DNA of 64,000 nucleotides from Halomonas ventosae (GTDB lineage Bacteria > Pseudomonadota > Gammaproteobacteria > Pseudomonadales > Halomonadaceae), in contig NZ_SNZJ01000004.1 in NCBI RefSeq assembly GCF_004363555.1, positions 186,001 through 250,000 of the forward strand. The letters are read 5' to 3'. The notes under the pieces are model-generated. The model made no database searches. It worked only from the letters and a program-made list of their open reading frames with translations, and had not been told where the DNA came from. Shown here one piece after another: positions 12,871 through 64,000 of the stretch. The position numbers were made by a program, and so were the translations under genes. Each line of letters begins with the position of its first letter. Position 1 is the stretch's first letter.

Positions 12871-12874
12871 GGGA

Positions 12875-14748: not shown

Positions 14749-14788
14749 TCGCCGATCAGACAGACCTATCGCGTCGTAAGACGCCGAG

Positions 14789-15949: not shown

Positions 15950-15964
15950 GGCCGAAGGATATCA

Positions 15965-16004
15965 AAACGCACACGGCGCCGATTTCTCGGCGCCGTGTGC
16001 GTTT
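15965..16004. terminator. Bidirectional terminator between dusA and the convergent amidohydrolase
   Basis: An 18-bp perfect stem (AAACGCACACGGCGCCGA paired with its complement) around a TTTC loop. A-rich on the left and T-rich on the right, it can terminate both convergent genes. Confidence 0.85.
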
Positions 16005-16014
16005 CGGGCGCGGC

Positions 16015-17046: not shown

Positions 17047-17147
17047 GGGCGCTCCTTGCGTCATGAAACGGTGTTTTTCATGGCTTCCTTATACGCCTCT
17101 GCCGCATCGATGACGAGCCCGACCGGCGTGATGGGCATGCCGCTATC

Positions 17148-17163
17148 CATACAATGGTGTATG
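17148..17163. promoter_or_regulatory. Palindromic operator candidate before the AcrR-like gene
   Basis: An inverted repeat CATACA-ATGG-TGTATG lies 64 bp before the regulator start codon. The adjoining word TGTATGTA is shared with AcrR-type operators, so it is probably an autoregulatory site. Confidence 0.5.
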
Positions 17164-17226
17164 TAAATGGCGAGGCGACTCGGGTAGAATAAGCCCATCA
17201 CCAGAACGCTGGAGAGCCCGCTTAAC

Positions 17227-17850: not shown

Positions 17851-18519
17851 GGCCTCGGCGCCGCCCCGTCGCTGGTGCAAGCGCAGCCGGCTGAGGTGGG
17901 ACCGTGCCTCGCGATACTCGACCTCCGGCACGCTGCGGTAGGCGTCTTCCCCGGCGACGTACTTGACCAGCACCCGACGCTCGCCGACCCGCGGCAGGTT
18001 GCCGGGCTTGCCGTGCAGACGCACCTGCCAGGCCGGGTCGTCGACCAGCACCGCCGCGGCCCAGCCATCGGCATCCGCCTCGCCCCTCACCTCCACCTTC
18101 TCGCCAAGCAGGCAGCGCCGCTGCTGCGGGGCATGGCGATGAAACCAACGATGCAGGCCATGGCACAGTCCTGCGGCCAGCGGCGAGGCGAGCGCGAAGG
18201 CCCCCCACAGCAGCGCCACCCCGACCGGGATGCGGAACAGCCCCAGCGGCAGCCAGCGCAACACGGCGAGTTCTACCCCCAGGGTGATGGCCCCCGCCAG
18301 CACCAGCAGCACCGTCAACGCGAAGGAGGCCGGCACCCCGGCGAAGCCCAGCGCCACCAGGGTGCTGGCCAGGTGGTCGCCCTTGAGGCTGTCGTGCTCG
18401 AAGCACTCCACCGGCGCCAGGCGCAAGGCCACCAGCAGCCAGTAGAGGGCGGCGAGGGCCAGCAGCGCGCTGAACACCACCACCGGGAAGCTCAGGGCAA
18501 TCTGGCGTACGGTTTCCAT
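17842..18519 (-). CDS. Membrane protein with C-terminal OB-fold-like domain (YqiJ-like)
   Basis: A 225-aa inner-membrane protein. Hydrophobic helices are visible at about residues 8-32, 60-80 and 90-118. A soluble C-terminal domain follows (GEKVEVRGEADADGWAAAVLV and VGERRVLVKYVAGEDAY), resembling the NfeD/YqiJ OB-fold that often accompanies flotillin-like proteins. No flotillin neighbour is present. Function is unknown; the family assignment rests on topology and a short C-terminal resemblance. Confidence 0.55.
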   Translation of the reverse strand: METVRQIALSFPVVVFSALLALAALYWLLVALRLAPVECFEHDSLKGDHLASTLVALGFAGVPASFALTVLLVLAGAITLGVELAVLRWLPLGLFRIPVGVALLWGAFALASPLAAGLCHGLHRWFHRHAPQQRRCLLGEKVEVRGEADADGWAAAVLVDDPAWQVRLHGKPGNLPRVGERRVLVKYVAGEDAYRSVPEVEYREARSHLSRLRLHQRRGGAEASS

Positions 18520-18658
18520 AGGGCACCTCCCGGCATTACTTAGCCAACGAATGAGTCTCTTGCCTCAGCGTAGACCATCGGGGCAAGGGATTGGACAACA
18601 TATCCCTGATGTGGGTCATGGACCGCCCGCAAGCGTCACGGCCGGCCCTTGATAAGGA

Positions 18659-18686
18659 AAGGGGCGCCCCGGTGGGGGCGCCCCTT
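18659..18686 (-). terminator. Intrinsic terminator of the RND efflux operon
   Basis: A 12-bp stem (AAGGGGCGCCCC and GGGGCGCCCCTT) with a 4-nt loop lies 62 bp beyond the acrB stop. On the minus strand it is followed by a T-rich TTTCCTT. Confidence 0.75.
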
Positions 18687-18747
18687 CTGTGGCGTGCCGG
18701 CTGTGTTGAGCCGGTCGTGGGCCAGCGCCAGGTGCTGGCCCCGGGTC

Positions 18748-21700
18748 TCACGGCTGGTCGGCGCCTGCCGTCCGGCGATGCTCTGCGCCACCCCCCAGCA
18801 CCCTGCGCCGCAGCCAGTCGGAGACCGCCGCGATCATGGCGTAGAAGCTCGGCACGAAGAAGCTGCCCAGCACCGCCACCGTGGCCATGCCCACCGCCAC
18901 CGTGGTGCCGATATGGTGGCTGCTGGTGTCGCTCGCCCCGGTGGCAAGCGCCAGCGGCAGGGTGCCGAAGATGAACGCCAGCGAGGTCATCACGATGGGC
19001 CGGAAGCGCAGCTGGGCCGCGGTGATGGCCGCCTCGCGGATCGTCTTGCCCTGCTCCTTGCGCTGCAGCTCGGCGAACTCGACGATCAGGATGGCGTTCT
19101 TGGCCGCCAGCCCCACCACCACCAGCATGCCGATCTCCACGTAGACGCTGGTATCCAGCCCGCGCAGCACGATGCCGCCGATGCCGCCGAGGAAGGCGAA
19201 CGGGGTCGCGGTGAGCACCGCCAGCGGCAGCGACCAGCTCTCGTACTGGGCCGCCAGGATCAGGAACACCATCAGCAGGCCGAAGACGATGGCCAGGGTG
19301 GCGGTGCTGCCCATCTGGGTCTCCTGGTAGGCGGTGCCGGTCCAGCCCATGCCCCAGTCATCGCCCAGGGTCTCCTGGACGATCTCCTCCATGGCGGCGA
19401 CCGCCTGGCCGGAGCTGTAGCCCGGTGCCGGGCCGCCCTGGAACTGGGCGCCCAGGTAGACCCCGAAGCGCGACACCACCGCCGGCTTGGCCTGGCGCTC
19501 GAGGGTCACGAACTCCGAGAGCGGGATCCGCTCGCCGTTGCCGCCGCGCACGTAGACGCTGCTGATGTCGTCCGGGGTCCGGCGGAACTCGTCCTCGTTC
19601 TGCAGGTAGACCTGGAAGTTGCGGTTCTGGTAGCTGAAGTAGTTGACGAAGCCGTTGCCGAAGGTGTTCGACAGGGTGGCGTTGAGGTCCTGGAGCGCCA
19701 CGCCGTAGCTGAGCGCCTTCTGCTGGTCGATCTCGGCCCGGTAGCCCGGCACGTTGACGTTGAAGGTGGTGAATACCCGCTGCAGGGCCGGATGCTCGCC
19801 CGCCGCCTGCATCACCTGCACCGAGGCCTGGAAGAGCTCCTGGGGGGAGGCACCCTCGAAGGACTGCAGGTAGCCGGTGAAGCCGCCGGTGGTGGAGAGC
19901 CCCATGATCGGCGGCATGTTGAAGGCCATGGCCGAGCCGCCGGGGATCTGGGCGCCCAGTTGCATCACCTGCCCCACCAGCCCCTCGGCGGTGAGCTCGC
20001 GCTCCGCCCAGGGCGCCATGTTGATGAACATCACACCCCGCGCGGTGTTCACCGCGCTGGAGAGGATGTCGTAACCGGCGACCGCCGCCACGTAGCTGAC
20101 CCCCGGGATCTCCTCGATGCGTGAGCTCAGCTCGCCCATGTAGTCCTGGGTGCGCGCCAGGGAGGCGGAATCCGGCAGCTGCACGCTGGCCAGCACGATG
20201 CCCTGGTCGGTCTCCGGCACCAGGGTCGAGGGCGTGGTCTGGTAGAGCCACCAGGAGCCGCCGATCACCAGGCCGGTGAGCAGCAGCGCCAGCCCCCAGA
20301 AGCGCACCAGCACCTTGACCACCCACATGTAGACGGCGGTGATGGCGGCGAAGAGGCGATCGAAGAGGCGCAGCGGGGTGTGGATCGCCCGCATCAGCTT
20401 CGACTCGCCCATCGGCGCCTTGTGCTTGATGAAGATCGCCGACAGGGCCGGGGTGAAGGTCAGCGCCATCAGCGCCGAGAAGGCTACAGAGATCGCCACG
20501 GTCAGCGCGAACTGCTGGTAGATCTGGCCGGTGAAGCCGCCCAGGAAGGCCACCGGCACGAAGACCGCGGCCATGATCAGCGAGGTGGCGATGACCGGGC
20601 CGCCCACCTCCTTCATGGCGCGGATGGTGGCCTGGGTGACGGTGATCTCCTCGTCCTCGCTGAGCACCCGCTCGACGTTCTCCACCACCAGGATGGCGTC
20701 GTCCACCACGATGCCGATGGAGAGCACCAGGGCGAACAGCGTCAACAGGTTGATGGAGAAGCCGAACATGTAGAAGCCGGCGAAGGTGGCCAGCACCGAG
20801 ACCGGCACCACCGACATGGCGATCACCGTGAAGCGCCAGTTCTGCAGGAAGATGAACAGGATCACGCCGACGATCAGGAAGGCCTCGATGAACACCTTGG
20901 TCACGGTGTTGACGGAGGCATCGATGAACAGGGTGGTGTCGTAGGGCACCACCTGCTCGAGGCCGGGCGGGAAGCGCCCCTCCAGCTCGGCCATGGTGGC
21001 CTTGACCGCCTCGGCCGTCTCCAGGGCGTTGGCCCCGGGCTGCTGGTTGATGATGATCGGCGACATGGCGGCGCCGTTCAGACGGGCATCCACGCCGTAG
21101 AAGGAGGCACCCAGCTCGATGCGCGCCACGTCCTGCAGGCGCAGCGAGGAGCCATCCGGGTTGGTGCGCAGGAAGATCTCGCGGAAGTCGTCGACGTCGC
21201 TGAGCCGTCCGCCCGCGGTGATGGTGTAGCTGAAGGCCCGCGGCTCGCTCTGCGGCGTGGCTGCCAGGTTGCCCGCCGGCACCTCGGTGTTCTGGGCGCG
21301 GATGGCCGCGGCCACCTCGGTGGGAGTCAGGTCATACTGCGCCAGCTTGTCCGGGTCCATCCAGATGCGCATGGCGAACTCGCCGCCGCCCAGCACCTCG
21401 GCATTGCCGACGCCGGGGACCTGGCGCAGCTCGTCGAGGATATTGAGGGTGGCGTAGTTCTGCATGTAGGTGCGGTTGTAGTCACCCTCCGGCGAGATCA
21501 GCGCCACCAGCATCAGGATCGAGCTGGAACGCAGTTCCACCTGCACGCCCTGGGCCTGCACCGCCTCGGGCAGCTGCGACAGCGCCCCCTGCACGCGGTT
21601 GTTGACGTTGATGGTGTTGATGTCGCCGTCGGTGCCGATGTTGAAGGCCACGTTGAGGCTCATGGTGCCGTTGTCGGCGCTGGTCGAGGTCATGTAGAGC

Positions 21701-52425: not shown

Positions 52426-53046
52426 ATGTTAGAGAACCTTCGCGAACGCCTGCAAGCACACCGGCCACGCCGGGTCGGCCTGCGCCTGCCCGAGGCCGCG
52501 GTGCTGCTGCCCATCGTCGACCGCCCCGAGCCGACCCTGCTGTTCACCCGCCGCGCCGACCATCTCAATACCCATAGCGGCCAGGTGGCCTTCCCCGGCG
52601 GCAAGCGCGAGCCGCAGGACAGCGACCTGCTGGCCACCGCGCTGCGTGAGTCCCGGGAGGAGATCGCCCTGCCGCCGGAGCGCGTGGAACTGCTCGGCCG
52701 GCTCTCGGACGTGGTCTCGCTGCATGGCCTGCGCGTCACCCCCTGGGTGGGGCTGATCCCGCCCGACCTGACACTCGTCCCCGATCCCGGCGAGCTCGAC
52801 GCCATCTTCGAGGTGCCGCTGTCGCACTTCCTCGAGGACCAGCGCACCCACACCGACGTGATCCGGGTGGATGGCCGCGACTACTACGTGCCCAGCTACC
52901 GCACCGATGGCCACGTGATCTGGGGGCTCTCCGCGATGATGCTGGTGGAACTGCTCGCCGAGGGCTTCGCCATGCCGATCAACCTCTTCGAGCGCCCACC
53001 GGGCGAGCTGCTCTATCTCCCCGAGCGCGGAGTCACCCGGCCATGA
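52426..53046 (+). CDS. CoA pyrophosphatase-type NUDIX hydrolase (NudL-like)
   Basis: A 206-aa NUDIX enzyme. The CoA-specific motif LLFTRRADHLNTHSGQVAFP precedes the Nudix box GGKREPQDSDLLATALRESR-EE, which together mark the NudL/CoAse subfamily. It would hydrolyse CoA and its derivatives to phosphopantetheine and 3',5'-ADP. ATG 52426 fits the family start. It is followed, with a 4-bp ATGA overlap, by the oxygenase gene. Confidence 0.88.
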   Translation: MLENLRERLQAHRPRRVGLRLPEAAVLLPIVDRPEPTLLFTRRADHLNTHSGQVAFPGGKREPQDSDLLATALRESREEIALPPERVELLGRLSDVVSLHGLRVTPWVGLIPPDLTLVPDPGELDAIFEVPLSHFLEDQRTHTDVIRVDGRDYYVPSYRTDGHVIWGLSAMMLVELLAEGFAMPINLFERPPGELLYLPERGVTRP

Positions 53047-53708
53047 TGCAGCGCGACGCCTTCGCCACCGACCTACCCCGCGAACGGCTGGCCGAACTGG
53101 TCGATGCCCTGGTGGAGAAGGGCTGGTACGTGGGCGAGGCCTTCATCCCCGCCGACCTGTGCGTCGAACTGTACCAGGAGCTCGGCGCCATGGCCGAGCG
53201 GGAGGCCCTGGATGCCGCCGGCATCGGCCGCGGCCAGGAACATGCCCTGCGCCGGGACATCCGCGGCGACGCCATTCGCTGGCTGGACCGCGAAAGCCAG
53301 GCCCGCCGCCGCTACCTCGAGGCCATGGGCGAGCTGCAGCAGGAGCTCAACCAGGCGCTCTTCCTGGGCCTCTTCGAGTACGAGGCGCACTTCGCCCACT
53401 ATCCGCCCGGTGCCTTCTACCGGCGACATCTCGACAGCTTCCGTGGCCGTGCCAACCGGGTGGTCTCCACGGTGGGCTACCTCAACCCCGGGTGGCCCGC
53501 CGACGCCGGCGGCGAGATGGTGATCTTCGCCGCGGACGACTCAGAGCGAGAAGTGGCCCGGGTACGCCCCGAGGCCGGCACCTTCGCCTGCTTCCTCTCC
53601 GACAGCGTGCCCCATGAGGTGCTGCCCACCCGCCTGCCGCGGGCCAGCATCGCCGGCTGGTTCCGGCGCAACGCCTCGCTGGGCGGCCTGGTGGACCCGG
53701 CGCGCTGA
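53043..53708 (+). CDS. 2-oxoglutarate/Fe(II)-dependent oxygenase (prolyl 4-hydroxylase-like)
   Basis: A 221-aa oxygenase with a jelly-roll fold. Iron ligands are His129 and Asp131 (YRRHLDSF) and His191 (SVPHEVLP); Arg200 would bind 2-oxoglutarate. TVGYLNPGWPADAGGEMVIF is typical of the SM-20/P4H group, whose bacterial members hydroxylate proteins such as EF-Tu or ribosomal proteins. The actual target is unknown. It is translationally coupled to both neighbours. Confidence 0.85.
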   Translation: MMQRDAFATDLPRERLAELVDALVEKGWYVGEAFIPADLCVELYQELGAMAEREALDAAGIGRGQEHALRRDIRGDAIRWLDRESQARRRYLEAMGELQQELNQALFLGLFEYEAHFAHYPPGAFYRRHLDSFRGRANRVVSTVGYLNPGWPADAGGEMVIFAADDSEREVARVRPEAGTFACFLSDSVPHEVLPTRLPRASIAGWFRRNASLGGLVDPAR

Positions 53709-55291
53709 TGGCGGACGAGGCGGCGATGGACGAGACACTGCGGCTGCAGGCACGCGTCGCCGAGCTGGAAGCGCGCAATGCGGCTCTCGAGGCCGAGAAG
53801 ACCCACTACCGCTGGCTGGCCGACAGCACCACCGACCTGATCTCCCGCCACGCCCGGGACGGCACCTTCCTCTACGCCTCCCAGGCGGCCAGGGACCTGC
53901 TCGGCTACGAGCCCGACGCGCTGATCGGCGTCTGCGCCTACGACCTCTTCCACCCCGCGGACCTCAGCGACCTGCTCAACAAGTCGCCGCGGGTCTACTA
54001 CCACGACGGCTTCTACCAGCAGACCTACCGCTTCCGGGCCAGGGATGGCCACTATGTCTGGTTCGAGACCACCAGCCGCACGCGCCGCGACCCGGCCACC
54101 GGCGAACTGATCGATATCCTCTGTGTCTCCCGGGACGTGAGTCGGCGCATCCGCATCGAGGCCCACCGCGAGCGCCTGGCCCGGGTCGTGGAATCGACCA
54201 CCGACTATGTGCTGTTCGTCGACGGCCAGGAGCGCATCTTCTATTCCAACGAGGCCGCTCGCCGGCTGCTCTCGCGGCCGTCACGACGCTTCCGGGAAGA
54301 CAGCGAGGCGCCCCTCGATCAGGCCTATACGCCGGATGCCCTGGCGATACTGCGCGAGGTCGTGCTGCCCGCCGTGGCGCGCTACGGTTCCTGGAGCGGC
54401 GAGCTCGAGATGCACGGCCCGAACGGGCCCGTGCCGGTGCTCAGCGTGGTGATGGCCCACTCGGCGCCCGGCGCCGAACCCGACCACCTCTCGCTGCTCA
54501 ATCGCGACATCGGCCTGCGCAAGGCAGCCGAGGCCCAGGAGCGCCGCCATCAGGAACAGATCGCCCATGCCAACCGCCTGGCCACCACCGGCGAGCTCGC
54601 GTCCAACATTGCCCACGAGCTGAACCAGCCGCTGGGGGCGATCGCCAACTACGCCAGCGGGGCACTGATGCAGCTCGCCGCCGACCCGCCCCGTTCCGCC
54701 GACGGGCTACGCCTGCCCCTCACGCGCATCAACGAGCAGGTCCAGCGCCTGGCCGAGCGGCTGCGCCACATCCGCACCTTCGTGCGCAAGGGGCAGACGC
54801 GACCCCGGCCGGTGATGCTGCACGAGGTCATCGACGCCGCCTGCCGGCTCTGCGAGTGGCAGTACCAGCAGACCGGCGTGGCACTGGAACACGACCTCCA
54901 GGATGGCCTGCCCCGGGTCCTGGCCGACCCGATAGCCCTGGAGCAGGTGCTGGTCAACCTGCTGCTCAACGCCCTGGAGGCGAGCCGCGGCCGGCCCGAT
55001 GCCGACCGGGTGACGATCCGCGCCCGGCGCACGGGCCCGCGGGAGGTGGTCCTCACGGTCAGTGATCGCGGTCCCGGGGTGCCGGCGGGGGCCCGGGAGC
55101 GGGTCTTCGCCCCCTTCCACACCAGCCGCCCCGAGGGGCTGGGGATGGGCCTGGCCATCAGCCACTCGCTGATGGAGGCCATGGGCGGTGACCTGCAACT
55201 GCTGCCCGTCGACGGCAACGGTGGGGCCAGCTTTGCCGCCACCCTGCTGGCCGAACCCGGGCTGGCCGCACCTGGCTGCCACACGCGATGA
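53708..55291 (+). CDS. Orphan PAS-domain sensor histidine kinase
   Basis: A 527-aa cytoplasmic sensor kinase without membrane helices. A coiled coil (1-35) leads into a PAS domain with PAC (about 36-150), a second PAS-like domain (155-272), a HisKA-type dimerisation region with phospho-His303 in IAHELNQPLGAIANY, and an HATPase domain (N-box LVNLLLNALEAS, G-box DRGPGVPAG, GLGMGLAIS). This layout is FixL/NtrB-like. No response-regulator gene lies nearby. Its ATG overlaps the oxygenase stop (TGATG). Confidence 0.88.
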   Translation: MADEAAMDETLRLQARVAELEARNAALEAEKTHYRWLADSTTDLISRHARDGTFLYASQAARDLLGYEPDALIGVCAYDLFHPADLSDLLNKSPRVYYHDGFYQQTYRFRARDGHYVWFETTSRTRRDPATGELIDILCVSRDVSRRIRIEAHRERLARVVESTTDYVLFVDGQERIFYSNEAARRLLSRPSRRFREDSEAPLDQAYTPDALAILREVVLPAVARYGSWSGELEMHGPNGPVPVLSVVMAHSAPGAEPDHLSLLNRDIGLRKAAEAQERRHQEQIAHANRLATTGELASNIAHELNQPLGAIANYASGALMQLAADPPRSADGLRLPLTRINEQVQRLAERLRHIRTFVRKGQTRPRPVMLHEVIDAACRLCEWQYQQTGVALEHDLQDGLPRVLADPIALEQVLVNLLLNALEASRGRPDADRVTIRARRTGPREVVLTVSDRGPGVPAGARERVFAPFHTSRPEGLGMGLAISHSLMEAMGGDLQLLPVDGNGGASFAATLLAEPGLAAPGCHTR

Positions 55292-55399
55292 GGCGGCGCG
55301 CACATCGACCATTGAGCTCGACGCCCCGCCTCGGTCATGATGGATCAAGGGAAAGCACTCAAGGATGAACGAGCCACGGCATACCGCTGGAGGAGCCAT

Positions 55400-55735
55400 A
55401 TGCAACCGCTGAGCTACTACTACTACAACGTGCTGGAAGGCCTCGAGAAGCCGAGCGATGTGCCGACGTCCCACCTGCAGGAGGGCTACGACATCCTGTA
55501 TCGGCATGGCGGGCGCATCGAGATCGACCTGATGCGCAAGGCCGAGGACGGCAATGCTCAGGGCGAGCCGTTCCACTGGTACGAGGAGCTCGATGACGTG
55601 CAGCGGGCGAAACTTCGCAAGGCCCTGGATGGCGGCGACCCGGCGAAGATCCTCAAGATCCTGCAGCGCAACGGCTATGCCGGCGTGCTCTACCACCATG
55701 CCTGGGAGCACTTCCGGGAGGCGGACTCGGCGTGA
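55400..55735 (+). CDS. Small acidic protein of unknown function (111 aa)
   Basis: I do not recognise this protein. It starts MQPLSYYYYNVLEGLEKPSDV and is hydrophilic and tyrosine/histidine-rich, with no membrane segment. ATG 55400 has an ideal GGAGGAG site. It is a separate small gene with its own terminator. Confidence 0.65.
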   Translation: MQPLSYYYYNVLEGLEKPSDVPTSHLQEGYDILYRHGGRIEIDLMRKAEDGNAQGEPFHWYEELDDVQRAKLRKALDGGDPAKILKILQRNGYAGVLYHHAWEHFREADSA

Positions 55736-55822: not shown

Positions 55823-55965
55823 AGGCTTTGTCTGAAAAGTCGGCGAGCGAAGGTCAGACAAGGCAAAAATCGGCGAAAAGACGGAGTTTACGGGGTGTAA
55901 ATGAGTACTTTGAGTCGATTTTTAACGCCGTATGGCCGAGCGCAGCCAGTTTTCGGACAGTGCCT
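55823..55965. mobile_element. MITE-like repeat element (143 bp)
   Basis: The element is bounded by imperfect terminal inverted repeats: left AGGCTTTGTCTGAAAAGT, right complement AGGCACTGTCCGAAAACT. It has an AT-richer interior (GAGTTTACGGGGTGTAAAT) unlike the flanking genes and encodes no protein. Its right tip supplies part of the stop codon of the neighbouring minus-strand gene. Confidence 0.5.
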
Positions 55966-56356
55966 AGGGCTTGGCCATCAGGTCCGCCCGCCAACCCCGC
56001 CAGAAGCTCACGCCCTGCAGCACGGCCAGCCCCCCCTCGTAGAGCGCCGGTAGCCACAGCAGGCCCGAGGCGAACAGGAAGAACAGCGCAAAGGCCCCCC
56101 GGAACAGGATCGACAGCAGCGCCACCAGGCGATTGTGCAGCGGCGACAGGGCAGCCGGCAGGTAGAGCAGCCCCACCACCAGCATGGCCAGGCCCGCGTA
56201 GCGGGGCCAGGTCAGGGGCGCCGCCAGGTCGGCGCGGATCAGCGCCAGGAAGCTCTCGGGCCACCACCACAGCCACAGGCCGAGCAGCACGTTGAGGACG
56301 ATGCCCGCCAGCATCACCCGTCGAAAGGTCCGGAACGCGTCGTTTGAGGTCTGCAT
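55964..56356 (-). CDS. Small four-helix membrane protein, paralogue A
   Basis: A 130-aa inner-membrane protein with four hydrophobic helices (about residues 12-32, 50-70, 78-98 and 100-120). It resembles the protein at 62266-62637 in size, hydrophobic pattern and the shared YLPAA segment. Both copies sit next to a diheme cytochrome gene, so they probably assist or anchor it. Function unknown. Its stop codon lies at the tip of the MITE-like element. Confidence 0.75.
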   Translation of the reverse strand: MQTSNDAFRTFRRVMLAGIVLNVLLGLWLWWWPESFLALIRADLAAPLTWPRYAGLAMLVVGLLYLPAALSPLHNRLVALLSILFRGAFALFFLFASGLLWLPALYEGGLAVLQGVSFWRGWRADLMAKP

Positions 56357-56382
56357 GGCGAGACTCCCTGGCCGGTGGGCCG

Positions 56383-57936
56383 CTAGAAGGTGAGCAGATA
56401 GTCGAGCAGGGCCGCCCGCTCCCCCGCCGCCAGCCCGGTGCCATAGTCATGGCCCTGGTTGCCGTTGCCGGGCAGGCGGGTGTCGAAGCAGAAGCCCTCG
56501 TCCAGGGGCTCCCCCGGGGTGCAGGCAGGGGCCACGAAGCCGCCCTTGTCGCCGTCCAGCACGTCCAGGCCACGGACGAAGGCCGTGGGACGCTCTTCCG
56601 GCGGCCGCAGCAGGTCGTGCAGGGTCGGCACCGAACCGTTGTGCAGGTAGGGGGCGCGCAGCCAGAGCCCGTCGAGGGGCTGGTTGGCGTAGCCGTCGGT
56701 CTTGCGGAAGTGGCGGAAGCGGTAGCGCTCGTCATCGGCGAACAGGGTGAGCTGGTCGCGACGCAGCGTCTCGGTGTAGCTGTCCAGGCGCGCCGGGTCG
56801 ACCCCGAGCGTGGCGTTGGGCACCACCTCGCCGAGCCGCTCGCCCTCGAAGACGTAGCGCTCTCCCTCCTGGTAGCCGTGGCAGTCGGCGCAGTGGCGCA
56901 TGTAGAGCGCCTTGCCGGCCGCCACGCTGTCGGCCTCGGGGTCGTGGGGGCTCGGCGGCGGCTCGAGGTCGAGCAGCCAGTCGGCGACCCGCTCGATGGC
57001 GGCGTGGTCGACGCTCTCCTCGGTGACCCCGGCGCCCAAGGCGGCACTCAGGTTGCGCTCCTGCAGCGAGGCGTTGTTGCCGTCCCAGTGCAGGTCCATG
57101 CCCTGGCGGGGACGCTGCAGGAAGATCGACGGGAAGTCCGCGGTGCCGACCCGCCCGTCCTCCGTCAGGCCGGCGAGGGTCATGTCGAACTGGATCAGCT
57201 TGTAGGGATTGAAGGTGTCGACCCGCCCCGGCCCCCAGGCCGGCTGCTCCGCCAGCAGCGGGGCCAGCCGCGCGCGGGTCGCCAGCAACCCCTCACGCAC
57301 CCGGGGCAGCACCGCGTGCCGCCACACCAGGCGCTCGACCCAGCCCAGTTCCTGACCCTGCTCCTCCATGGCGCCGAGCACGCTGTCCGGCGCCAGCCGC
57401 GGGTCATCGGCGATCTCCAGCAGGAAGGCGATGAAGCCGTGGAGGTCCAGATTGTTGGAAGGCATGCCCGAGACCAGCCGCGGCTCGGCCTCGGGGGACT
57501 CGCGCACCGTGCCGGTATGGCACACCGCACAGTTGAGCCAGCCAAGCTCCACGCCGCGCACCTTGCGGGTGCCCACGCCGATGGGCAGGTCGCCCGCGTC
57601 CAGGCTGTCGCCCGGGGCGTAGAGGAAGCCGAAGGCCGCGTAGCCCTCCTCGCCCAGCGTCTCGGGGAAGAGCTCGGGCAACACCCGCCACAGCCGCACC
57701 GGCAGCCCGCTTTCCGGCTCGCTGCCGATGGAGCCGTGGCGGAAGTGCACCTCCGGGTCGGCATAGTGGCGCACCGACTCGCCGCTGTAGCGCCACAGGG
57801 TGGGGATGCCGATCGCCAGCACGATCACGCCGGCCAGCACCACGGCCAGCGCCAGCAGGGTCAGCGGCAGGCGTCGCCGGCGGCGACGGCGGGACGCGTC
57901 CTGCACGGCGGTGACGGGGGGCTCCTGGCGTCTCAT
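56383..57936 (-). CDS. Membrane-anchored diheme cytochrome c (RoxA/peroxidase-like), copy A
   Basis: A 517-aa c-type cytochrome. An N-terminal Arg-rich stretch and TM helix (residues 24-46) anchor it facing the periplasm. Haem sites are C136AVCH and C349ADCH. HWDGNN and the C-terminal LRAPYLHNGSVPTLHDLL are shared with diheme peroxidase and RoxA-type oxygenase cytochromes. It could carry electrons or be an oxygenase; sequence does not decide. It is 7 bp downstream of the OYE gene and belongs to the minus-strand cluster. Confidence 0.85.
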   Translation of the reverse strand: MRRQEPPVTAVQDASRRRRRRRLPLTLLALAVVLAGVIVLAIGIPTLWRYSGESVRHYADPEVHFRHGSIGSEPESGLPVRLWRVLPELFPETLGEEGYAAFGFLYAPGDSLDAGDLPIGVGTRKVRGVELGWLNCAVCHTGTVRESPEAEPRLVSGMPSNNLDLHGFIAFLLEIADDPRLAPDSVLGAMEEQGQELGWVERLVWRHAVLPRVREGLLATRARLAPLLAEQPAWGPGRVDTFNPYKLIQFDMTLAGLTEDGRVGTADFPSIFLQRPRQGMDLHWDGNNASLQERNLSAALGAGVTEESVDHAAIERVADWLLDLEPPPSPHDPEADSVAAGKALYMRHCADCHGYQEGERYVFEGERLGEVVPNATLGVDPARLDSYTETLRRDQLTLFADDERYRFRHFRKTDGYANQPLDGLWLRAPYLHNGSVPTLHDLLRPPEERPTAFVRGLDVLDGDKGGFVAPACTPGEPLDEGFCFDTRLPGNGNQGHDYGTGLAAGERAALLDYLLTF

Positions 57937-57943
57937 GGCGGCC

Positions 57944-59314
57944 TCACGGGGTATGCGCTTTGGTGTCTCGAGCGGGCGGCACCGGCGGCAACTGCAGCTC
58001 GGGCCGGGTCTCGTAGATGGCCATCAGGGACTCGAGCATGCGCTCGTGGTCGCCGTCGAAGCGCTCGAGCTCATAGCAGCCCAGCGGGTTCTTGGGCGCG
58101 TTGAGCAGGCACTTGTTGCAGAAGGTGCAGGGGTTCTCCGGCACATCGTGGCCCGCCTGCCACTGTCGCGGCAGGTCGGGGTTGGCGATCAGCGCCCGGG
58201 CGCTTGAGACGGCATCGCAGGCCCCCGAGGCGATGGCCTCGCGCACCAGGGCGGCACGCTGGTAGCCGCCGGTGCTGATCACCGGGATGGTCACCGCCTC
58301 GCGGATGGCGCGCGCCTCGTCCAGGCCGATGCCCTCCACCTCGCGGCCGCGCCGGTGGCGGAACCACAGCCAACGGAAGATCCAGCGCAGCGCCGGATAA
58401 CGGAACAGCAGGTAGTTGCGGAAGGTGTCGACCCCGGCGGAGAGCATGGTGTCGTAGGTGCTGGCGATGGTCTCGAAGGAGAAGTCCCCGGGCGGGTTCA
58501 GGGGGTGGGGGAAGAGGCTGCCCAGCGAGACGTGCAGGGCGTCGGCCCCGGCCGTCTCGGCCCAGCGGCAGACCTGGACGGTCTCCGCCAGGCTGTTGCC
58601 CTTGCCCTCCCAGGGCAGCACGTCGTTATGGTCCACGGCGCTGATCTTCACCTGCAGGTGGAAGTCCGGTCCCACCCGGTCGCGGATCGCCTCGATCACC
58701 TCCAGCAGGAAGCGCGCCCGGTTCATCAGCGAGCCGCCGTAGCGGTCACGCCGGTCGTTGATCGCCGAGCTCAGGAACTGGGTGAAGAGGTAACCGTTGG
58801 CGGCGTGCAGTTCCACGCCGTCGAGCCCCGCCTCCCGGGCGCGCCACGCGCCGCGGGCGAAGGCCTCGACGGTGCGCTCGACCTCGTGGCCGCTCATCGC
58901 GCGGCACAGGAAGCCGTGCAGCGACTCCTTGCGATCGGTGGCGCTGGGCGCCCGCCGATGCTGGTTGTGCACCCCGGGCAGGTCCCGCTGCCGGCCGGAG
59001 TGGCTGAGTTGCAGGATGTACTTGCAGTCGAAGCGGTGCACCGCCTCGCCGAGGCGCTGCCAGAGGGGAATGAAGTCGTCGCGGTGGATGGTGGCGTAGC
59101 CGGCGACGATGCGCCCCTCCATCTGCACCGGCACGAAGGAGGAGAGGATGGCCCCCACCCCGCCGCGGGCGAAGCGGCACTCCCAGTTGATGCGGGTCTG
59201 GGTCAGGCTGCCGTCCTCGTTGTCGAAGCGCCCGGATACGTTGGAGCGCAGCAGGCGGTTCTTGATCGTGATGTTGCGCCACTTGAGCGGCGTGAAGATG
59301 ACGTCCTCGCTCAT
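57944..59314 (-). CDS. Old Yellow Enzyme-type NADH:flavin oxidoreductase with Fe-S motif
   Basis: A 456-aa FMN-dependent ene-reductase-like protein. LDGVELHAANGYLFTQFLSS and DRYGGSLMNRARFLLEV are OYE hallmarks, and FMN-binding STGGYQ and SSARALIANPD are present. Near the C-terminus C396-C399-C402-C413 form a 4Fe-4S motif as in 2,4-dienoyl-CoA reductase, but the second Rossmann half of that enzyme is missing. It may reduce an enone or oxylipin product. ATGA overlap with the P450-like gene couples translation. Confidence 0.85.
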   Translation of the reverse strand: MSEDVIFTPLKWRNITIKNRLLRSNVSGRFDNEDGSLTQTRINWECRFARGGVGAILSSFVPVQMEGRIVAGYATIHRDDFIPLWQRLGEAVHRFDCKYILQLSHSGRQRDLPGVHNQHRRAPSATDRKESLHGFLCRAMSGHEVERTVEAFARGAWRAREAGLDGVELHAANGYLFTQFLSSAINDRRDRYGGSLMNRARFLLEVIEAIRDRVGPDFHLQVKISAVDHNDVLPWEGKGNSLAETVQVCRWAETAGADALHVSLGSLFPHPLNPPGDFSFETIASTYDTMLSAGVDTFRNYLLFRYPALRWIFRWLWFRHRRGREVEGIGLDEARAIREAVTIPVISTGGYQRAALVREAIASGACDAVSSARALIANPDLPRQWQAGHDVPENPCTFCNKCLLNAPKNPLGCYELERFDGDHERMLESLMAIYETRPELQLPPVPPARDTKAHTP

Positions 59315-60219
59315 GCGCCTTGCCCTCCTTGCCGCACCGCCATGGCCTGCTCCCAGACCGCCGCCAGCAGCGCCAGGATGAAGCCCTGGGCCGGGCAGCG
59401 CGCCCAGCTCTCGCCCATGAAGGCCAGCTCGCGATCACCGCTGCCCCGGGCGGCAGCCGCCAGGCGCAGCACCACCAGGTCGCCGGGCTCGAGCCGGCGC
59501 GGCGCGCAGGGCGTCGACAGCGGCCTCCTTACCCGGCGCAGCAGCGTCTCCGGCGCCGCCAGGGTGCGGCCCAGCACCGCCGACAGGGAGAGCCCGCGGG
59601 CCTGCGGCGTGGCGTACAGCTCGCGCATCGCCGCCAGCGACGCCACCAGGTTGTGCACGGCGATGCCGGTGGCATGCAGGGCCAGCGGCTCGCCGCCGGC
59701 ACGCTCGGCCAGCAGCCGCCGGGCATGGCGCAGGCGCCCCGTGACCCGTTGGCCCAGGGCGCGCAGGACGTTGATGCGGGGATAGGCGTCGAGCAGCCGG
59801 GCGGCCGCATAGCTCGCCTCGTCGGAGCGGTAATCGTCGCGGAACAGCCGGCCCAGCAACCCCTGGGCGGCGGGTCCCAGTGCCTCGGCCTCGGCCTGGC
59901 CGGCCACCGCCTCCACCAGGGTCTTGAAGGCCGGGTCCCGGTACCAGGCCGAGGCCTCGGCATACGCATCGAGACGCCGCCCCAGCTCGGCGTGGCGAGA
60001 CGCGCGCCCCTGCGCCTCGCGGGCCAGCAGGGCGGGCAGCGGCTCGCCGTCGAAGACGAAGGCCTGGCGCAGGCGGGCCAGGCGCCATCGATTGATCAGC
60101 CCGCCGGCGGGCGCCAGATGGCGGTCCAGCCGCGGCTCGCCGTCCAGCTGGCGGATCTCCCTGGCGTCGCTCACCTCCAGCAGGTTGAGGAGGCCGGGAA
60201 TGCTCAGGCGCCTGGCCAT
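59311..60219 (-). CDS. Short P450-like protein of unknown function
   Basis: A 302-aa, mostly helical soluble protein. Near the C-terminus LEPGDLVVLRLAAAARG is followed by AFMGESWARCPAQGF, resembling the P450 'GDxVxxxxxAANRD' strand and the F-x-x-G-x-x-x-C haem-thiolate loop (candidate ligand Cys275), although one residue longer than consensus and lacking the usual PERF stretch. A helix with HATGIAVHNLV recalls the I-helix of dioxygenase-linked P450s. At 302 aa it is well short of a normal P450 (~400). AGGGAGGT precedes ATG 60219. Family assignment is tentative. Confidence 0.45.
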   Translation of the reverse strand: MARRLSIPGLLNLLEVSDAREIRQLDGEPRLDRHLAPAGGLINRWRLARLRQAFVFDGEPLPALLAREAQGRASRHAELGRRLDAYAEASAWYRDPAFKTLVEAVAGQAEAEALGPAAQGLLGRLFRDDYRSDEASYAAARLLDAYPRINVLRALGQRVTGRLRHARRLLAERAGGEPLALHATGIAVHNLVASLAAMRELYATPQARGLSLSAVLGRTLAAPETLLRRVRRPLSTPCAPRRLEPGDLVVLRLAAAARGSGDRELAFMGESWARCPAQGFILALLAAVWEQAMAVRQGGQGA

Positions 60220-60254
60220 GGTACCTCCCTATCTCTCCGTGCTAGCCGCGAGCC

Positions 60255-62063
60255 CTATTTACGAACCCAGGGGAAGAAGACGTTGCGCACGCCCTCCATC
60301 CGCGGCGCCAGCTCCGGGAAATGGCGGGCGATGACGGTGCGCAGGCCGTTGTCGTCGATCCAGGCCATGCCCGCCCGGGTGTAGACCTCGGGGGTGTAGT
60401 CGTCGGTAAAGAAGCGATCGCTCTTGAGTCGCCGGGAGGCCATCAGGATGAAGATGCGAAAGGCGGTGTCGCTGAAGGCGAAGCCGGGCGGCGGGGTCTC
60501 GGCGAGGCAGCCGGTGAGCAGGTCGACCTGCTCCACGTCGCCGTAGACCGCCTCCAGCTCGCGCTGCCACTCGGGATCGTCGGTGAGCTCGGCGAAGCTC
60601 GCCGGGGCCGGCATGTCGATCAGCCGGCGGAAGCGGCAGTAGCGCGGCACCCCGCGCTCGCGGTCGCGCAGCACGTCGATGGTGGCCAGGTCGATGGTGC
60701 GCTCGTGGGGGGCCTGCTTGTCATGCTGCTGCAGGTGGCGCGGGAAGTTGTGCAGCACCAGCGCGCCGGGGTGGCTGGTGGCCAGCGAATAGAGGGCGTC
60801 AGCCAGCGGCACCTCGTCATAGAGCGCCTGGGTGCGCGAGCCGGCGACCTCGGTAAGGCCGCAGGCCTTGAGCGGGGCGTCATCGGCCTGGCGACGGAAG
60901 TCGAAGTCGTCGGGCACCAGCGGGTGCATGCGGTAGACGGCACTGAACTCCTCGGTGATGGCGTAGGGCGCGGAATGGTGATCCACCGGCGAGCCGACGA
61001 TGCCGCTGAACAGTTCGCTGTCGCTGACCCGGCCACGGCTGCGGTAGAAGTGCTCGTCGAGGATGCCCCACCAGTTGGCGCGCATGCCCAGGCGCAGCTC
61101 CGGGGTGTCGAGCAGGGCCGGCGTCCACTCCACGGTGTGGATCTTGGCGATCAGGGCGGCGTTGATCAGGCGCGCCTTCTGGAACAGCCACTCGCCGTCG
61201 CTATCCGGATGATCGATGCGCAGCCGGTCGACGATGGCGTTGTGCTCCCGGGCGAAGAGGGTGTGCATCAGCGACAGCCCGACCCACCAGTTGCCGTTGA
61301 CCCCCGCCAGTTCGATACCGTGCTCGTCACGGGGCAGGTGGCCGTCGGGGCGCAGGTAGAGCTTGCCGTCGGGGAGCAGCTCGCCGCTCTCCGGGTCACT
61401 GCGCACCAGGCGCTGGCGCCTGAGGCTGCTGCCGTAGATCTGCGAGCCGTCCCACCATTGGGTCTCGGTGTTGAGGAAGGTCTCCGGGAAGCCCTCGTCG
61501 GCATCGCCGCGGGTCGAATCTCGGCGCGAGCGAAGCACCGTCATGCGCTCCCAGGGCCAGTCGTCGTCCTCGTCGAGGGGAACCTCGTGGGGTGTCGCCT
61601 CGGCGTCGTTGCTGCCGTGGCTGAACCAGTCATGGACCATGAACTGCAGCCAGGCGGGCACCAGGACGTTCAGGGTGGTGGCCGGCGTGAAGTTCTCCCG
61701 GGTCATCAGCCGGCGGCTCACCACCCGCGGGCTCGGCGTCATCAACGCCTCGCCGGTCTCGGGGAACGTCTCGGCAATGGGCACGTTGCGCCCGAAGCGG
61801 GTATGCGCCTTGCCCATGCAGGGGGCCGCCAGGTCGTTGTAGCTGCCGTCGGCGGTGCGACAGCCGCGCACGTCGAAGGTGCCCTTGTCGGGGTCGGGCG
61901 GCCGTTCGCGTTCGGTGTCGTGGAGATTGTGCCAGCGCAGGTTGCCGCGCAGGGCGACGAGGTTGAGCACGGCAATGGGGAAGGGAAACTGATGCCACTG
62001 GCGGCGCCGGTTGATGCGCCGGAAGAGGCGACCGAGCAGGCCGCTGCCGCGTTGTCCGAACAT
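60255..62063 (-). CDS. Animal-haem-peroxidase/alpha-dioxygenase-like protein
   Basis: A 602-aa haem protein of the peroxidase-cyclooxygenase superfamily. Visible key residues are distal His144 (FMVHDWFSH), catalytic-type Tyr377 and proximal His380 (VYRMH) and the superfamily helix LFAREHNAIVDRL. TADGSYNDLAAPCMGKAHTR and FGRNVP closely recall plant fatty-acid alpha-dioxygenases, which put a hydroperoxide at C2 of fatty acids. No signal peptide is evident. ATG 62063 has GGAGGA upstream. It is the first gene of the minus-strand cluster. Confidence 0.85.
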   Translation of the reverse strand: MFGQRGSGLLGRLFRRINRRRQWHQFPFPIAVLNLVALRGNLRWHNLHDTERERPPDPDKGTFDVRGCRTADGSYNDLAAPCMGKAHTRFGRNVPIAETFPETGEALMTPSPRVVSRRLMTRENFTPATTLNVLVPAWLQFMVHDWFSHGSNDAEATPHEVPLDEDDDWPWERMTVLRSRRDSTRGDADEGFPETFLNTETQWWDGSQIYGSSLRRQRLVRSDPESGELLPDGKLYLRPDGHLPRDEHGIELAGVNGNWWVGLSLMHTLFAREHNAIVDRLRIDHPDSDGEWLFQKARLINAALIAKIHTVEWTPALLDTPELRLGMRANWWGILDEHFYRSRGRVSDSELFSGIVGSPVDHHSAPYAITEEFSAVYRMHPLVPDDFDFRRQADDAPLKACGLTEVAGSRTQALYDEVPLADALYSLATSHPGALVLHNFPRHLQQHDKQAPHERTIDLATIDVLRDRERGVPRYCRFRRLIDMPAPASFAELTDDPEWQRELEAVYGDVEQVDLLTGCLAETPPPGFAFSDTAFRIFILMASRRLKSDRFFTDDYTPEVYTRAGMAWIDDNGLRTVIARHFPELAPRMEGVRNVFFPWVRK

Positions 62064-62265
62064 GGGAATCCTCCCCGGTAGACGTCGTCGCTGAGATCAG
62101 GACGCGGGCATTGCCCCTTGCCGGTTTTCGCCTCGCCAAGGCATGAGATACCTCAACCCCTCGGGATGAACGTGACCGTACTGCAAGTGACAACTAACCT
62201 TTAGCACAGGGTCTCTCCCCCCTCAATGAAACTCACGCCCCGCCTCACGGGGCCCTGGAGGACGC
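62064..62265. promoter_or_regulatory. Divergent promoter region of the lipid-oxidation-like cluster (202 bp)
   Basis: This gap separates two divergent transcripts and must hold both promoters. I see AT-richer stretches (around 62180-62210) but no clear palindrome or promoter boxes. Confidence 0.4.
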
Positions 62266-62637
62266 TTGACCAAGGGTGGCTACGCGACGGGATTCCGCCT
62301 CATGGTACTGCTGGGCGTGGCGGCCAACCTGGCCCTGGCGGTACCCGCGGTCTTCGCCCCCAATGCGGTGATCACGCTGGTGGGCGGGACACCGGTGGCC
62401 GAGACGGTGTGGCCCGCCTTCGCTGGCTGGCTGCTGATCCTGCTCAGCCTGTTCTACCTGCCGGCGGCCGTCGATCCCGAGCGTTACCGGGTCGTCGCCG
62501 TGCTGACGGTGCTGGCGCGCTTCGCCGGGGTCACCTTCTTCACGCTGCTCCATCCACAATTCCTGCTGCTCGCCCTGTTCGACCTGTTCTTCGGCGTCAC
62601 CCAGGGCATGCTGCTGCTGGCGCTCGGCCGACGCTGA
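62266..62637 (+). CDS. Small four-helix membrane protein, paralogue B
   Basis: A 123-aa inner-membrane protein with four hydrophobic helices, resembling the protein at 55964-56356. The TTG at 62266 is taken as start because TGGAGGA sits at the right distance upstream; ATG 62302 would cut into the first helix. It precedes the second diheme cytochrome gene by 34 bp. Function unknown. Confidence 0.7.
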   Translation: MTKGGYATGFRLMVLLGVAANLALAVPAVFAPNAVITLVGGTPVAETVWPAFAGWLLILLSLFYLPAAVDPERYRVVAVLTVLARFAGVTFFTLLHPQFLLLALFDLFFGVTQGMLLLALGRR

Positions 62638-62671
62638 GCGGTGTCTTCGACTCTTTCGGGAGGAAGCGGTC

Positions 62672-64000
62672 ATGGCTCGCAAGGATCACGCCCACGCCCG
62701 GGTCCGTCACTGGCTCATCTGGCTGGCGCTGCTGTTGGCACTGGGCGCCGTGGTGGCGACGATCGGCTGGTACAAGCTGTTCCGCGAGGTGCCCCAGCAC
62801 TTCGATAGCGTCGAGGCCTACTACCGTTACGGCTCCATCGGCACCGAACCGGAGGAGGGTCTGCCCTACTGGGTCTGGCGCGTGCTGCCGAAGGTGTTCC
62901 CGCAACACCTGCCGGAGGAGGCAGAGGACGCGGGCTACGCCGCCCTGGGTGTGGTCTGGGAAGAGGGCGAACCCACGCCGGTGGGGTTCTCGCTGAAGAC
63001 CCTCGGCTTCCCGCGCATCGGCATCAACTGCGCGGCCTGCCACACCGCCACCTACCGCACCTCAGCGGACGGCGAACGCCGTATCGTGCCCGCCGGCCCC
63101 CACCAGACCTTCGACCCCCAGGCCTACCTGCGTTTCCTGGGCGATGCCGCCACCGACCCGGACTTCACCGCCGACACCCTGCTGGCCGCCATCCGGGAGG
63201 AGACCGAGCTCTCCTGGCTCGACCGCCTGCTCTACCGCTTCCTGATCATCCCGCGCACCCGCGACGGGCTGCTGGAGCAGGCCGAGCGTTTCCGCTGGAC
63301 CGAGGAGCGGCCACGCTGGGGGCCGGGGCGCATCGATCCCTTCAACCCGGTGAAGTTCCACCCCGACCTGCTCGCCCTGGACCCCGCCGAGGACGACACC
63401 ATCGGCAACTCCGACATCATGCCGCTATGGGCGCTGGACGAGCAGGAGGGCTACGCCCTGCACTGGGACGGGCTCAACGACACCATCACCGAAGTCGTGC
63501 TCAGCGGCGCCATCGGCGACGGTGCCCGCCCCGACTCCCTGCCGGTGGAAGCGCTGGGCGAACTGGAAACCTACCTGCGCGAGCTGGCGCCGCCGCCCTA
63601 CCCCTTCGACGCCCGGGACGAGCAGATGGCCGCGCGGGGCAAGGTGCTCTTCGAGGAGACCTGCGCGGGCTGCCATGGCCCCGAGGGCGCGCGCACCGGC
63701 ACGGTGATCCCGCAGCCGGAGGTGGGCACCGACCGCCACCGCCTGGCGATGTGGACCGCCGAGGCCGCCGAACGCTACAACGCCTATGCCGAGGCGTACC
63801 CCCGGGACTTCGACGCCTTCGTCAAGACCGACGGCTACGTGGCCAAGCCGCTGACCGGCATCTGGCTGCGCGCGCCCTACCTGCACAACGGTTCGGTGCC
63901 CACGGTGGAGGACCTGCTGCGTCCCGCCGAGGAGCGCCCCGTGGTCTTCCATCGCGGCTACGACGTCTATCATCCCGACCGCCTGGGCTTCATCCACGAG
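62672..64000 (+). CDS. Membrane-anchored diheme cytochrome c, copy B, truncated by window edge
   Basis: 443 codons are visible, open at the right edge. A TM helix (residues 13-33) anchors the protein. Haem sites are C120AACH and C331AGCH, and LHWDG and LRAPYLHNGSVPTVEDLLRP are shared with copy A at 56383-57936. The two are clearly paralogues, but this copy lacks part of the linker. ATG 62672 has an AGGAAG site. Confidence 0.85.
   Translation, partial: MARKDHAHARVRHWLIWLALLLALGAVVATIGWYKLFREVPQHFDSVEAYYRYGSIGTEPEEGLPYWVWRVLPKVFPQHLPEEAEDAGYAALGVVWEEGEPTPVGFSLKTLGFPRIGINCAACHTATYRTSADGERRIVPAGPHQTFDPQAYLRFLGDAATDPDFTADTLLAAIREETELSWLDRLLYRFLIIPRTRDGLLEQAERFRWTEERPRWGPGRIDPFNPVKFHPDLLALDPAEDDTIGNSDIMPLWALDEQEGYALHWDGLNDTITEVVLSGAIGDGARPDSLPVEALGELETYLRELAPPPYPFDARDEQMAARGKVLFEETCAGCHGPEGARTGTVIPQPEVGTDRHRLAMWTAEAAERYNAYAEAYPRDFDAFVKTDGYVAKPLTGIWLRAPYLHNGSVPTVEDLLRPAEERPVVFHRGYDVYHPDRLGFIHE

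Follow-up and report, generated by a model that had tools for sequence, protein, structure and literature searches.

Seven genes lying at one end of a 64,000-nucleotide stretch of the genome of the halophilic bacterium Halomonas ventosae (contig NZ_SNZJ01000004.1; hereafter the window) raise the question of what a fatty-acid dioxygenase, a flavoenzyme and two dihaem cytochromes may accomplish together in a bacterium. All seven open reading frames are present in the places assigned to them by the original prediction (Table 1), and six of its seven gene calls stand as regards reading frames, families and motifs: a fatty-acid alpha-dioxygenase-like haem protein (aDOX), an Old Yellow Enzyme (OYE), two membrane-anchored dihaem cytochromes (cytA and cytB) and two small membrane proteins (memA and memB). 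The seventh call, a P450-like identity for the 302-aa protein, was not confirmed. Gaps within each transcription unit range from -4 to 35 bases, the 302-aa gene and OYE overlapping by 4 bases, and 202 bases separate the divergently transcribed aDOX and memB. The reading frame of cytB is complete on the contig (L002:3672-5135) and ends at window position 64135.

Table 1. Genes of the putative fatty-acid-oxidising locus, in window coordinates.
Gene	Position	Strand	Predicted product
memA	55964-56356	minus	130-aa membrane protein, memB paralogue
cytA	56383-57936	minus	517-aa membrane-anchored RoxA-like dihaem cytochrome c
OYE	57944-59314	minus	456-aa Old Yellow Enzyme, C-x2-C-x2-C-x10-C motif
302-aa protein	59311-60219	minus	candidate reduced P450-like protein for hydroperoxide processing; family not catalogued
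aDOX	60255-62063	minus	602-aa fatty-acid alpha-dioxygenase
memB	62266-62637	plus	123-aa membrane protein, memA paralogue
cytB	62672-64000, past window end	plus	487-aa RoxA-like dihaem cytochrome c, the second in the locus

The product of aDOX matches Pfam family PF03098 (E 3.4e-110) and PDB entry 4kvj (E 2.8e-111), is 38.6% identical to the crystallised rice enzyme over 568 positions, and possesses 15 of the 16 haem, tyrosine and channel residues of the latter, among them H144, H380, Y377, F373, F538, H309, T314 and R545. The distal and proximal histidines and the catalytic tyrosine (H144, H380 and Y377) are invariant in eight aligned sequences, that of the window included, and sequence comparison assigns H309, T314 and R545 to the His/Thr/Arg carboxylate site. 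A Calothrix protein with 51% identity to aDOX agrees with CalDOX at all 16 of the residues quoted in PMC8720084. CalDOX is reported there to have been assayed on C6-C18 acids, with the best activity at approximately C10-C16, and alpha-dioxygenases are noted from five bacterial phyla. At the level of its residues, the Halomonas dioxygenase is a fatty-acid alpha-dioxygenase, and the conserved channel residues argue against the loss of a fatty-acid channel. Full-length aDOX was found in nine of the 151 genomes of the family, its own included; the large peroxidases of three genomes (G278, G281 and G304) were rejected as alpha-dioxygenases because only fragments of their frames of 1048-1854 aa match.

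The product of OYE matches PF00724 (E 9e-60; 203.2 bits against a cut-off of 27), and among solved structures its top match is 2,4-dienoyl-CoA reductase (1ps9, E 2.2e-37), OPR3 being matched as well. Its four-cysteine motif, CTFCNKC-x10-C, a candidate Fe-S cluster site of the FadH type, occupies residues 396-413; the corresponding spacing in FadH is C-x2-C-x3-C-x11-C. Both cytochromes match PF21419 and exceed the NF040606 cut-off of 150 bits, cytA only just (152.2 bits) and full-length cytB with 184.2 bits. Each possesses a single N-terminal hydrophobic segment and two CxxCH motifs (CAVCH 136 and CADCH 349 in cytA, CAACH 120 and CAGCH 331 in cytB), together with PYLHNGSV at 429 in cytA and at 402 in cytB; cytA ends in G495-H496, and the two proteins are 41% identical. 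By two CxxCH motifs, a MauG-type PY[LF]HNGSV motif, a C-terminal histidine and NF040606 scores over the cut-off, their sequences show that cytA and cytB belong to the RoxA-like dihaem group. RoxA is the best solved match both of cytA and of a profile built from 11 relatives (4b2n, E 1.7e-24 for the profile). Nevertheless, cytA and cytB were rejected as rubber oxygenases: Phe317, described as essential in RoxA in PMC4496055, aligns with Ala in cytA and Asp in cytB, and the RoxA, RoxB and RoxC models gave cytA and full-length cytB only 49-76 bits against cut-offs of 900-1000. That source also places PA2077/PA2078 of Pseudomonas aeruginosa near RoxA, and the motifs quoted there include the PYLHNGSV found in cytA and cytB. 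An AlphaFold model of cytA from 28 sequences was too poor for use (mean pLDDT 47), and its fold matched nothing in PDB at E<=0.001. The paralogues memA and memB, with 33-35% identity, have three and four hydrophobic segments, respectively; at E<=1, neither has a match in Pfam or NCBIfam. A role in export, part of the original prediction, was dropped because the seven genes include no recognised transporter.

Searches of Pfam, NCBIfam and PDB matched the 302-aa protein to no P450 model, PF00067 included, and to no P450 chain, the Pfam thresholds being E<=1 for the window protein, E<=10 for ten homologues and E<=0.1 for two further homologues; weak matches to DUF7108_C (E 0.17, in one of the ten homologues) and to ribosomal proteins (E 1-2.8) were taken as chance. 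No relatives were found in viral contigs. Across 13 sequences of the family, H182, T184, R228, F267, W272 and C275-P276-A277 are invariant, and none of the 13 contains the P450 haem-cysteine loop FxxGxxxCxG: the invariant phenylalanine precedes Cys275 by eight positions, compared with seven in the P450 motif, glycine at C-4 occurs in only one of eight lineages (G959), and the residue at C+2 is alanine. The ExxR motif of helix K is missing too, the corresponding stretch (PETLLR, PARVVR, PRTIVR, PPSVLR, PKTVLR and others) having an invariant arginine and an unconserved acidic residue that lies one place off. When the family profile was compared with 28 P450 sequences by hhalign, the probability was only 8%, with Cys275 in register with the P450 cysteine, and neither 200 column shuffles nor any of 22 decoy families reached the score of 29.2 (P 0.0043); a shallower HMM-HMM comparison with nine sequences was weaker (2.2% local, 3.7% global). 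An AlphaFold2 model from 15 Halomonadaceae sequences was too poor for use (mean pLDDT 55) and resembled no fold in PDB at E<=0.001. In one genome (G1285), a single frame joins a protein of the 302-aa type to one of the memA type. If it is a haem-thiolate enzyme, the 302-aa protein would be remarkably small for a relative of the P450s.

The original prediction would have been refuted by homologues scattered among unrelated neighbours; the full set of seven, however, is clustered in every one of the 14 named Halomonadaceae loci, as it is in another relative (G321). Named Halomonas and Billgrantia isolates are among the carriers. Beyond the Halomonadaceae, the 302-aa gene recurs in seven lineages and is adjoined by aDOX in six of them; five of the seven were found via the 302-aa protein (aDOX adjoining in four) and two, G765 and G816, via aDOX. 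A RoxA-like cytochrome is present in five of the seven. Some genomes possess only parts of the set. G1227 has the 302-aa, OYE, cytA, mem and cytB genes, but only fragments of a distant peroxidase turned up when its genome was searched; the loci of Rhizobium johnstonii and S. fredii lack both aDOX and the 302-aa protein, their share of the set being OYE, cytochromes and a membrane protein; and G541 and G816 have aDOX without cytochromes within the regions compared. The aDOX of Rhizobium phaseoli is fused to a catalase-like domain (PF00199, 28.1 bits against a cut-off of 25; PDB 3e4w, E 8.5e-12) and the next gene encodes a RoxA-like cytochrome. A partner domain common to Calothrix and G819 was rejected as a catalase, having no Pfam or PDB match. 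Patatin genes adjoin cytB in six of the 14 named Halomonadaceae loci and lie within approximately 5 kb of the clusters in L119, L074, L075 and L076; none was found in the flanks compared for eight of the 14 or for the window locus.

On balance, these comparisons favour a single functional unit that would oxidise fatty acids at the cytoplasmic membrane, probably making or processing oxidised fatty acids. The way in which it does so is probably not yet described; the top results of open-access literature searches contain no account of the seven-gene set. The product of aDOX would convert a free fatty acid and O2 to a 2-hydroperoxy acid, which can lose CO2 to yield the Cn-1 aldehyde. The 302-aa protein is proposed to be a haem protein that takes the hydroperoxide without a redox partner (the seven genes encode none), like the hydroperoxide-isomerising P450s of fungi and plants. 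The resulting product would be reduced or oxidised by OYE, or by an ALO-type FAD protein in some relatives, and the two cytochromes, each paired with a small membrane protein and facing the periplasm, may either introduce another oxygen, as PA2077/PA2078 do, or act as hydroperoxide reductases. The phospholipase genes found close by in several relatives hint at membrane lipids as the source of the fatty acid. Since G1227 keeps the 302-aa, OYE and cytochrome genes without aDOX, a strictly linear pathway from aDOX is not proven, and together with the rhizobia that have the OYE/cytochrome part alone, G1227 makes the substrate and the order of steps tentative. Likewise, aDOX, OYE and the 302-aa protein have no hydrophobic segments whereas the cytochromes are anchored c-type proteins, so that a shared compartment and substrate are only presumed.

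Since cytA and the cytochrome profile both have the rubber oxygenase RoxA as their top match among solved structures, the locus might instead serve isoprenoid or branched-acid catabolism, the cytochromes cleaving terpenoid C=C bonds in the periplasm, OYE reducing unsaturated carbonyls, and aDOX shortening 3-methyl-branched acids, an obstacle to beta-oxidation, by one carbon; alpha-oxidation is a known bypass of a 3-methyl branch. This is unlikely given the replacement of Phe317 and the low RoxA, RoxB and RoxC scores, and the phospholipase neighbours favour ordinary lipids. The name of NF040606, di-haem cytochrome c peroxidase, and the ability of OYEs to reduce enals would fit a defence against lipid hydroperoxides, in which the dihaem proteins would work on lipid peroxides as cytochrome c peroxidases, peroxides would be scavenged by the aDOX-type and 302-aa proteins, and OYE would detoxify reactive enals. 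We consider this quite unlikely, as aDOX has retained the residues for a fatty-acid channel and for carboxylate binding that mark an enzyme making hydroperoxides, and its patchy spread in the family would be unusual for a housekeeping function. Finally, an aDOX unit with varied partners and a unit of OYE, cytochromes and membrane proteins might travel together while acting on separate substrates. Each is found without the other (aDOX is absent in L074, L078 and L122 and, within the regions compared, cytochromes in L080 and L081), but their joint presence in Halomonadaceae, G765, G959, G1313 and Qingshengfaniella (where an FAD protein replaces OYE), and the cytochrome adjoining aDOX in Rhizobium phaseoli, make such independence very unlikely.

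The cluster gives bacterial aDOX a conserved context consisting of a partner of uncatalogued family, a flavoenzyme and RoxA-like dihaem cytochromes. A more specific proposal, possible though doubtful, is that its unfused proteins correspond to the dioxygenase, the hydroperoxide-isomerising haem enzyme and the OYE that act in succession in fungi and plants. In this bacterial version, aDOX would feed a new minimal haem-thiolate family of approximately 300 aa, a strongly shortened P450 acting on hydroperoxides without redox partners, and OYE and periplasmic RoxA/FadCcp-like dihaem oxygenases would complete the product, to yield a signalling or membrane-remodelling oxylipin.

Rice aDOX and CalDOX have the haem ligands, catalytic tyrosine, phenylalanine stack and His/Thr/Arg carboxylate site in common with the Halomonas enzyme, in which M325 of rice aDOX is Leu; unlike either, the latter, known here from its sequence, sits in a seven-gene unit. 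The parallel originally drawn with fungal Ppo/LDS enzymes holds insofar as a COX-type dioxygenase stands beside a putative haem-thiolate partner, as in the DOX-CYP fusions (Ppo, LDS, AOS), and is otherwise an analogy: the fungal fusions oxidise mid-chain carbons whereas Halomonas aDOX, because it keeps the carboxylate-binding residues, is of the C2 type, and the locus has separate proteins with a partner of only 302 aa without P450 hallmark motifs. The plant jasmonate pathway has the same three kinds of step (dioxygenase, P450 hydroperoxide isomerase and OPR-type OYE), if the 302-aa protein is P450-like, but its dioxygenase belongs to the lipoxygenase family, and C2 hydroperoxides are not known to give rise to allene oxides. 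In coral AOS-LOX, a catalase-related hydroperoxide enzyme is reportedly fused to a dioxygenase, similar to the catalase-like fusion of Rhizobium phaseoli but not to the window locus, which has no such fusion. According to PMC4496055 and PMC6311187, PA2077/PA2078 (FadCcp, oleate-diol synthase) and RoxA/RoxB have two CxxCH motifs, a PYLHNGSV-type motif and a C-terminal histidine in common with cytA and cytB. Trp302 of RoxA aligns with Trp, and Phe301 with His, in the cluster cytochromes, each of which is paired with a small membrane protein, unlike RoxA/RoxB and PA2077/PA2078 (the latter compared by quoted motifs only). The oxylipin-making enzymes of P. aeruginosa have been placed near the RoxA-like group of the cluster cytochromes.

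The seven open reading frames of the locus, read on the window and on its contig, are real and tightly packed: memA, cytA, an Old Yellow Enzyme (OYE), a 302-aa protein and a fatty-acid alpha-dioxygenase (aDOX) on the minus strand, and memB and cytB divergently on the plus strand, with the shared promoter region of the two units at 62064-62265. The genome that carries them measures 4.0 Mb and belongs to the Halomonas group; cytB, cut at the window end, was followed to full length on the contig. Among 151 genomes sampled from the Halomonadaceae, 12 have an aDOX match, which is full-length in nine (this genome included), and each of the eight others with a full-length aDOX possesses the seven genes in the same order as two divergent units. 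A scan of named genomes yielded 14 loci with the 302-aa protein, all 14 holding the seven genes, the closest 302-aa genes being those of Halomonas and Billgrantia species; the scan used patterns typical of Halomonadaceae and so does not measure the reach of the 302-aa gene. Seven of the eight fetched aDOX genomes were judged to fall among these loci, and the distinct genomes with the cluster are those 14, the relative G321 and that of the window. The cluster is a real, conserved bacterial unit, most likely with a role in fatty-acid oxidation, and no description of it was found in the open-access literature searched.

Coordinates of the 302-aa gene, of genes flanking the cluster and of related loci in other genomes
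Feature	Sequence	Coordinates	Strand
2OG-Fe(II) oxygenase	window	53043-53708	
PAS histidine kinase	window	53708-55291	
132-aa protein	window	55337-55735	
302-aa protein	window	59311-60219	-
IS481-type transposase	L002 (contig of the window, past its end)	5154-6170	
LuxR-type response regulator	L002	6234-6941	
Catalase-like/aDOX fusion	L073 (Rhizobium phaseoli)	7915-10743	
OYE-to-patatin row	L074 (R. johnstonii pRL11)	7466-19410	
CalDOX-like gene to patatin	L075 (Calothrix)	7986-15910	
Patatin beside the cluster	L119 (G959)	4210-5172	
440-aa fused frame	L121 (G1285)	6860-8182	

An An_peroxidase match spans residues 69-586 of aDOX, whose closest counterparts of known structure are the plant alpha-dioxygenases 4kvj (E 2.8e-111) and 4hhr (3e-102). 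Of 16 residues taken from the rice-enzyme list in PMC8720084, which cover haem, tyrosine, stacking and channel positions, 15 are identical in the aDOX of the window on a pairwise alignment, the sole exception being M325, which is L323 here. We read entry 4kvj as the rice protein, since a constant offset of 3 reconciles it with the rice residue numbers; the paper itself assigns 4KVK to Arabidopsis and 4HHS to rice, at odds with that numbering, and its PDB codes therefore seem exchanged. The aDOX shares 51% identity with a plasmid-encoded protein of Calothrix PCC 6303. In that protein the 16 residues given for CalDOX all occur at their stated numbers and, judged from these positions, it is likely CalDOX, which PMC8720084 showed to oxidise medium and long-chain acids.

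The 302-aa protein belongs to no catalogued family. Across 13 sequences from eight lineages it has 32 invariant positions, start included, among them H182, T184, R228, F267, W272 and C275-P276-A277; neither the P450 signature loop nor ExxR was found in these 13 sequences. In an HMM-HMM comparison with a P450 profile (28 sequences, picked by Cys motif from the loci of PF00067 matches, together with a Streptomyces P450), residues 183-282 align with the C-terminal half of the profile, and Cys275 falls in register with the P450 haem Cys. The comparison scores 29.2; 200 column-shuffled versions give 14.8 +/- 2.7 and never exceed 24.8, and 22 decoy families, taken from the same loci, reach 22.0 at most, but the absolute probability of the match is just 8%, and was 2-4% in a shallower first run, so that P450 ancestry is treated as a lead. 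Whereas all other gene calls of the original prediction held, its label of this gene as P450-like is unproven.

Beyond the Halomonadaceae the 302-aa protein is rare: no further carrier was found among 274 genomes of the class, and it is present in two of 385 genomes of the class of G765 (G765 itself and G959), in four of 149 genomes of the family of G816 (G816 itself, G1227, G1285 and G1313), and in one of 72,556 plasmid records. The outside lineages with the gene are seven, these six genomes and Qingshengfaniella (on a plasmid). aDOX adjoins it in six of the seven, or in four of five once G765 and G816, which an aDOX search had brought up, are set aside to avoid bias. An OYE is present in four of the seven and a RoxA-like cytochrome in five, the latter being absent from the fetched region of G816 and from the 9.3-kb contig of G1285. 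G1313 has the row aDOX, 302-aa, OYE, cytA, mem, cytB, mem, and in G1285 a single 440-aa frame combines a 302-aa type protein with a memA-type small membrane protein. G1227 possesses 302-aa, OYE, cytA, mem and cytB genes, but a search of its genome found no aDOX, just fragments of a distant peroxidase being matched, and this gene set speaks against a simple story.

The partners of aDOX also differ. Nine of 398 genomes sampled across the phylum have an aDOX match at E<=1e-40, and the 302-aa gene is present in four of them (that of the window, G292, G765 and G816). Four others belong to one genus of another family of the same order, with aDOX frames of 922-954 aa; in G819, the one read, aDOX runs C-terminally into an extra domain that shares 41% identity with the product of a gene near the Calothrix aDOX and for which no Pfam or PDB match was found. 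The ninth, G541, has instead a FAD protein, 49% identical to that of Qingshengfaniella. On a plasmid of Rhizobium phaseoli, a catalase-like domain is N-terminal to aDOX in one protein, and the next gene encodes a RoxA-like cytochrome. The domain matches Catalase at 28.1 bits (cut-off 25) and PDB 3e4w at E 8.5e-12, an entry titled "putative uncharacterized protein" that we take to be a small catalase-related haem protein. The same region also encodes Fic, peptidase and tyrosinase proteins. Annotated P450 and benzoylformate decarboxylase genes are among the aDOX neighbours on a Streptomyces plasmid. Gene architecture suggests that putative peroxide-handling haem partners of aDOX recur in varying forms, G541 being without such a partner.

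In loci L045-L048, L050 and L051, six of the 14 named ones from Halomonadaceae, cytB adjoins a gene for a patatin-type protein whose start resembles that of a lipoprotein (confirmed by Pfam in one of them); the fetched flanks of the remaining eight, and the window, showed none. Patatin is also directly beside the G959 cluster, and annotated patatins lie within about 5 kb of the clusters in R. johnstonii, Phyllobacterium and Calothrix, in the last with an intervening transposase. At 202.9, the score of the G959-side patatin exceeds the cut-off (200) of a model for CBASS cGAMP-activated phospholipases. R. johnstonii pRL11 encodes, in one direction and without aDOX, an OYE, a cytochrome, a membrane protein, a cytochrome, a 929-aa cytochrome-like protein, a GMC oxidoreductase and the patatin. 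S. fredii, likewise without aDOX, has OYE, membrane-protein and two cytochrome genes, then another cytochrome and a GMC oxidoreductase; the gene in the place of the patatin carries a hypothetical-protein annotation and shares 62-66% identity with that patatin. The CalDOX-like gene of Calothrix is on a plasmid with a 303-aa protein, a GMC oxidoreductase and the patatin downstream.

Counterparts of some flanking genes (kinase, 2OG-Fe(II) oxygenase, 132-aa protein, regulator) adjoin the cluster in five of the 14 loci (L038 and L041-L044), a recurrence that may reflect regulation of the cluster. In the genome of the window, the transposase gene directly follows cytB, with a response-regulator gene beyond.

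The pathway first proposed, in which a dioxygenase and a P450 act as separate proteins with an added reductase, is plausible but partly analogical. Active-site conservation, family assignments and the joint occurrence of the genes are established from sequence; we infer the substrate, the haem in the 302-aa protein, the reaction order, and the roles of the OYE and the cytochromes. The identity of cytA to cytB (41%) and of memA to memB (33-35%) suggests that the cytochrome and membrane-protein module was probably duplicated. Both cytochromes have two CxxCH motifs, a PYLHNGSV motif and a C-terminal histidine; PYLHNGSV is reported for PA2077/PA2078 (PMC4496055) and the form PYLHNGSVP for a RoxB (PMC4496055/PMC6311187). 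A profile of 11 relatives matches RoxA (4b2n) at 1.7e-24. The H641 region of RoxA aligns with the C-terminal histidine of both proteins. In the profile alignment, W302 of RoxA corresponds to Trp, F301 to His, and F317 to Ala in cytA and Asp in cytB.
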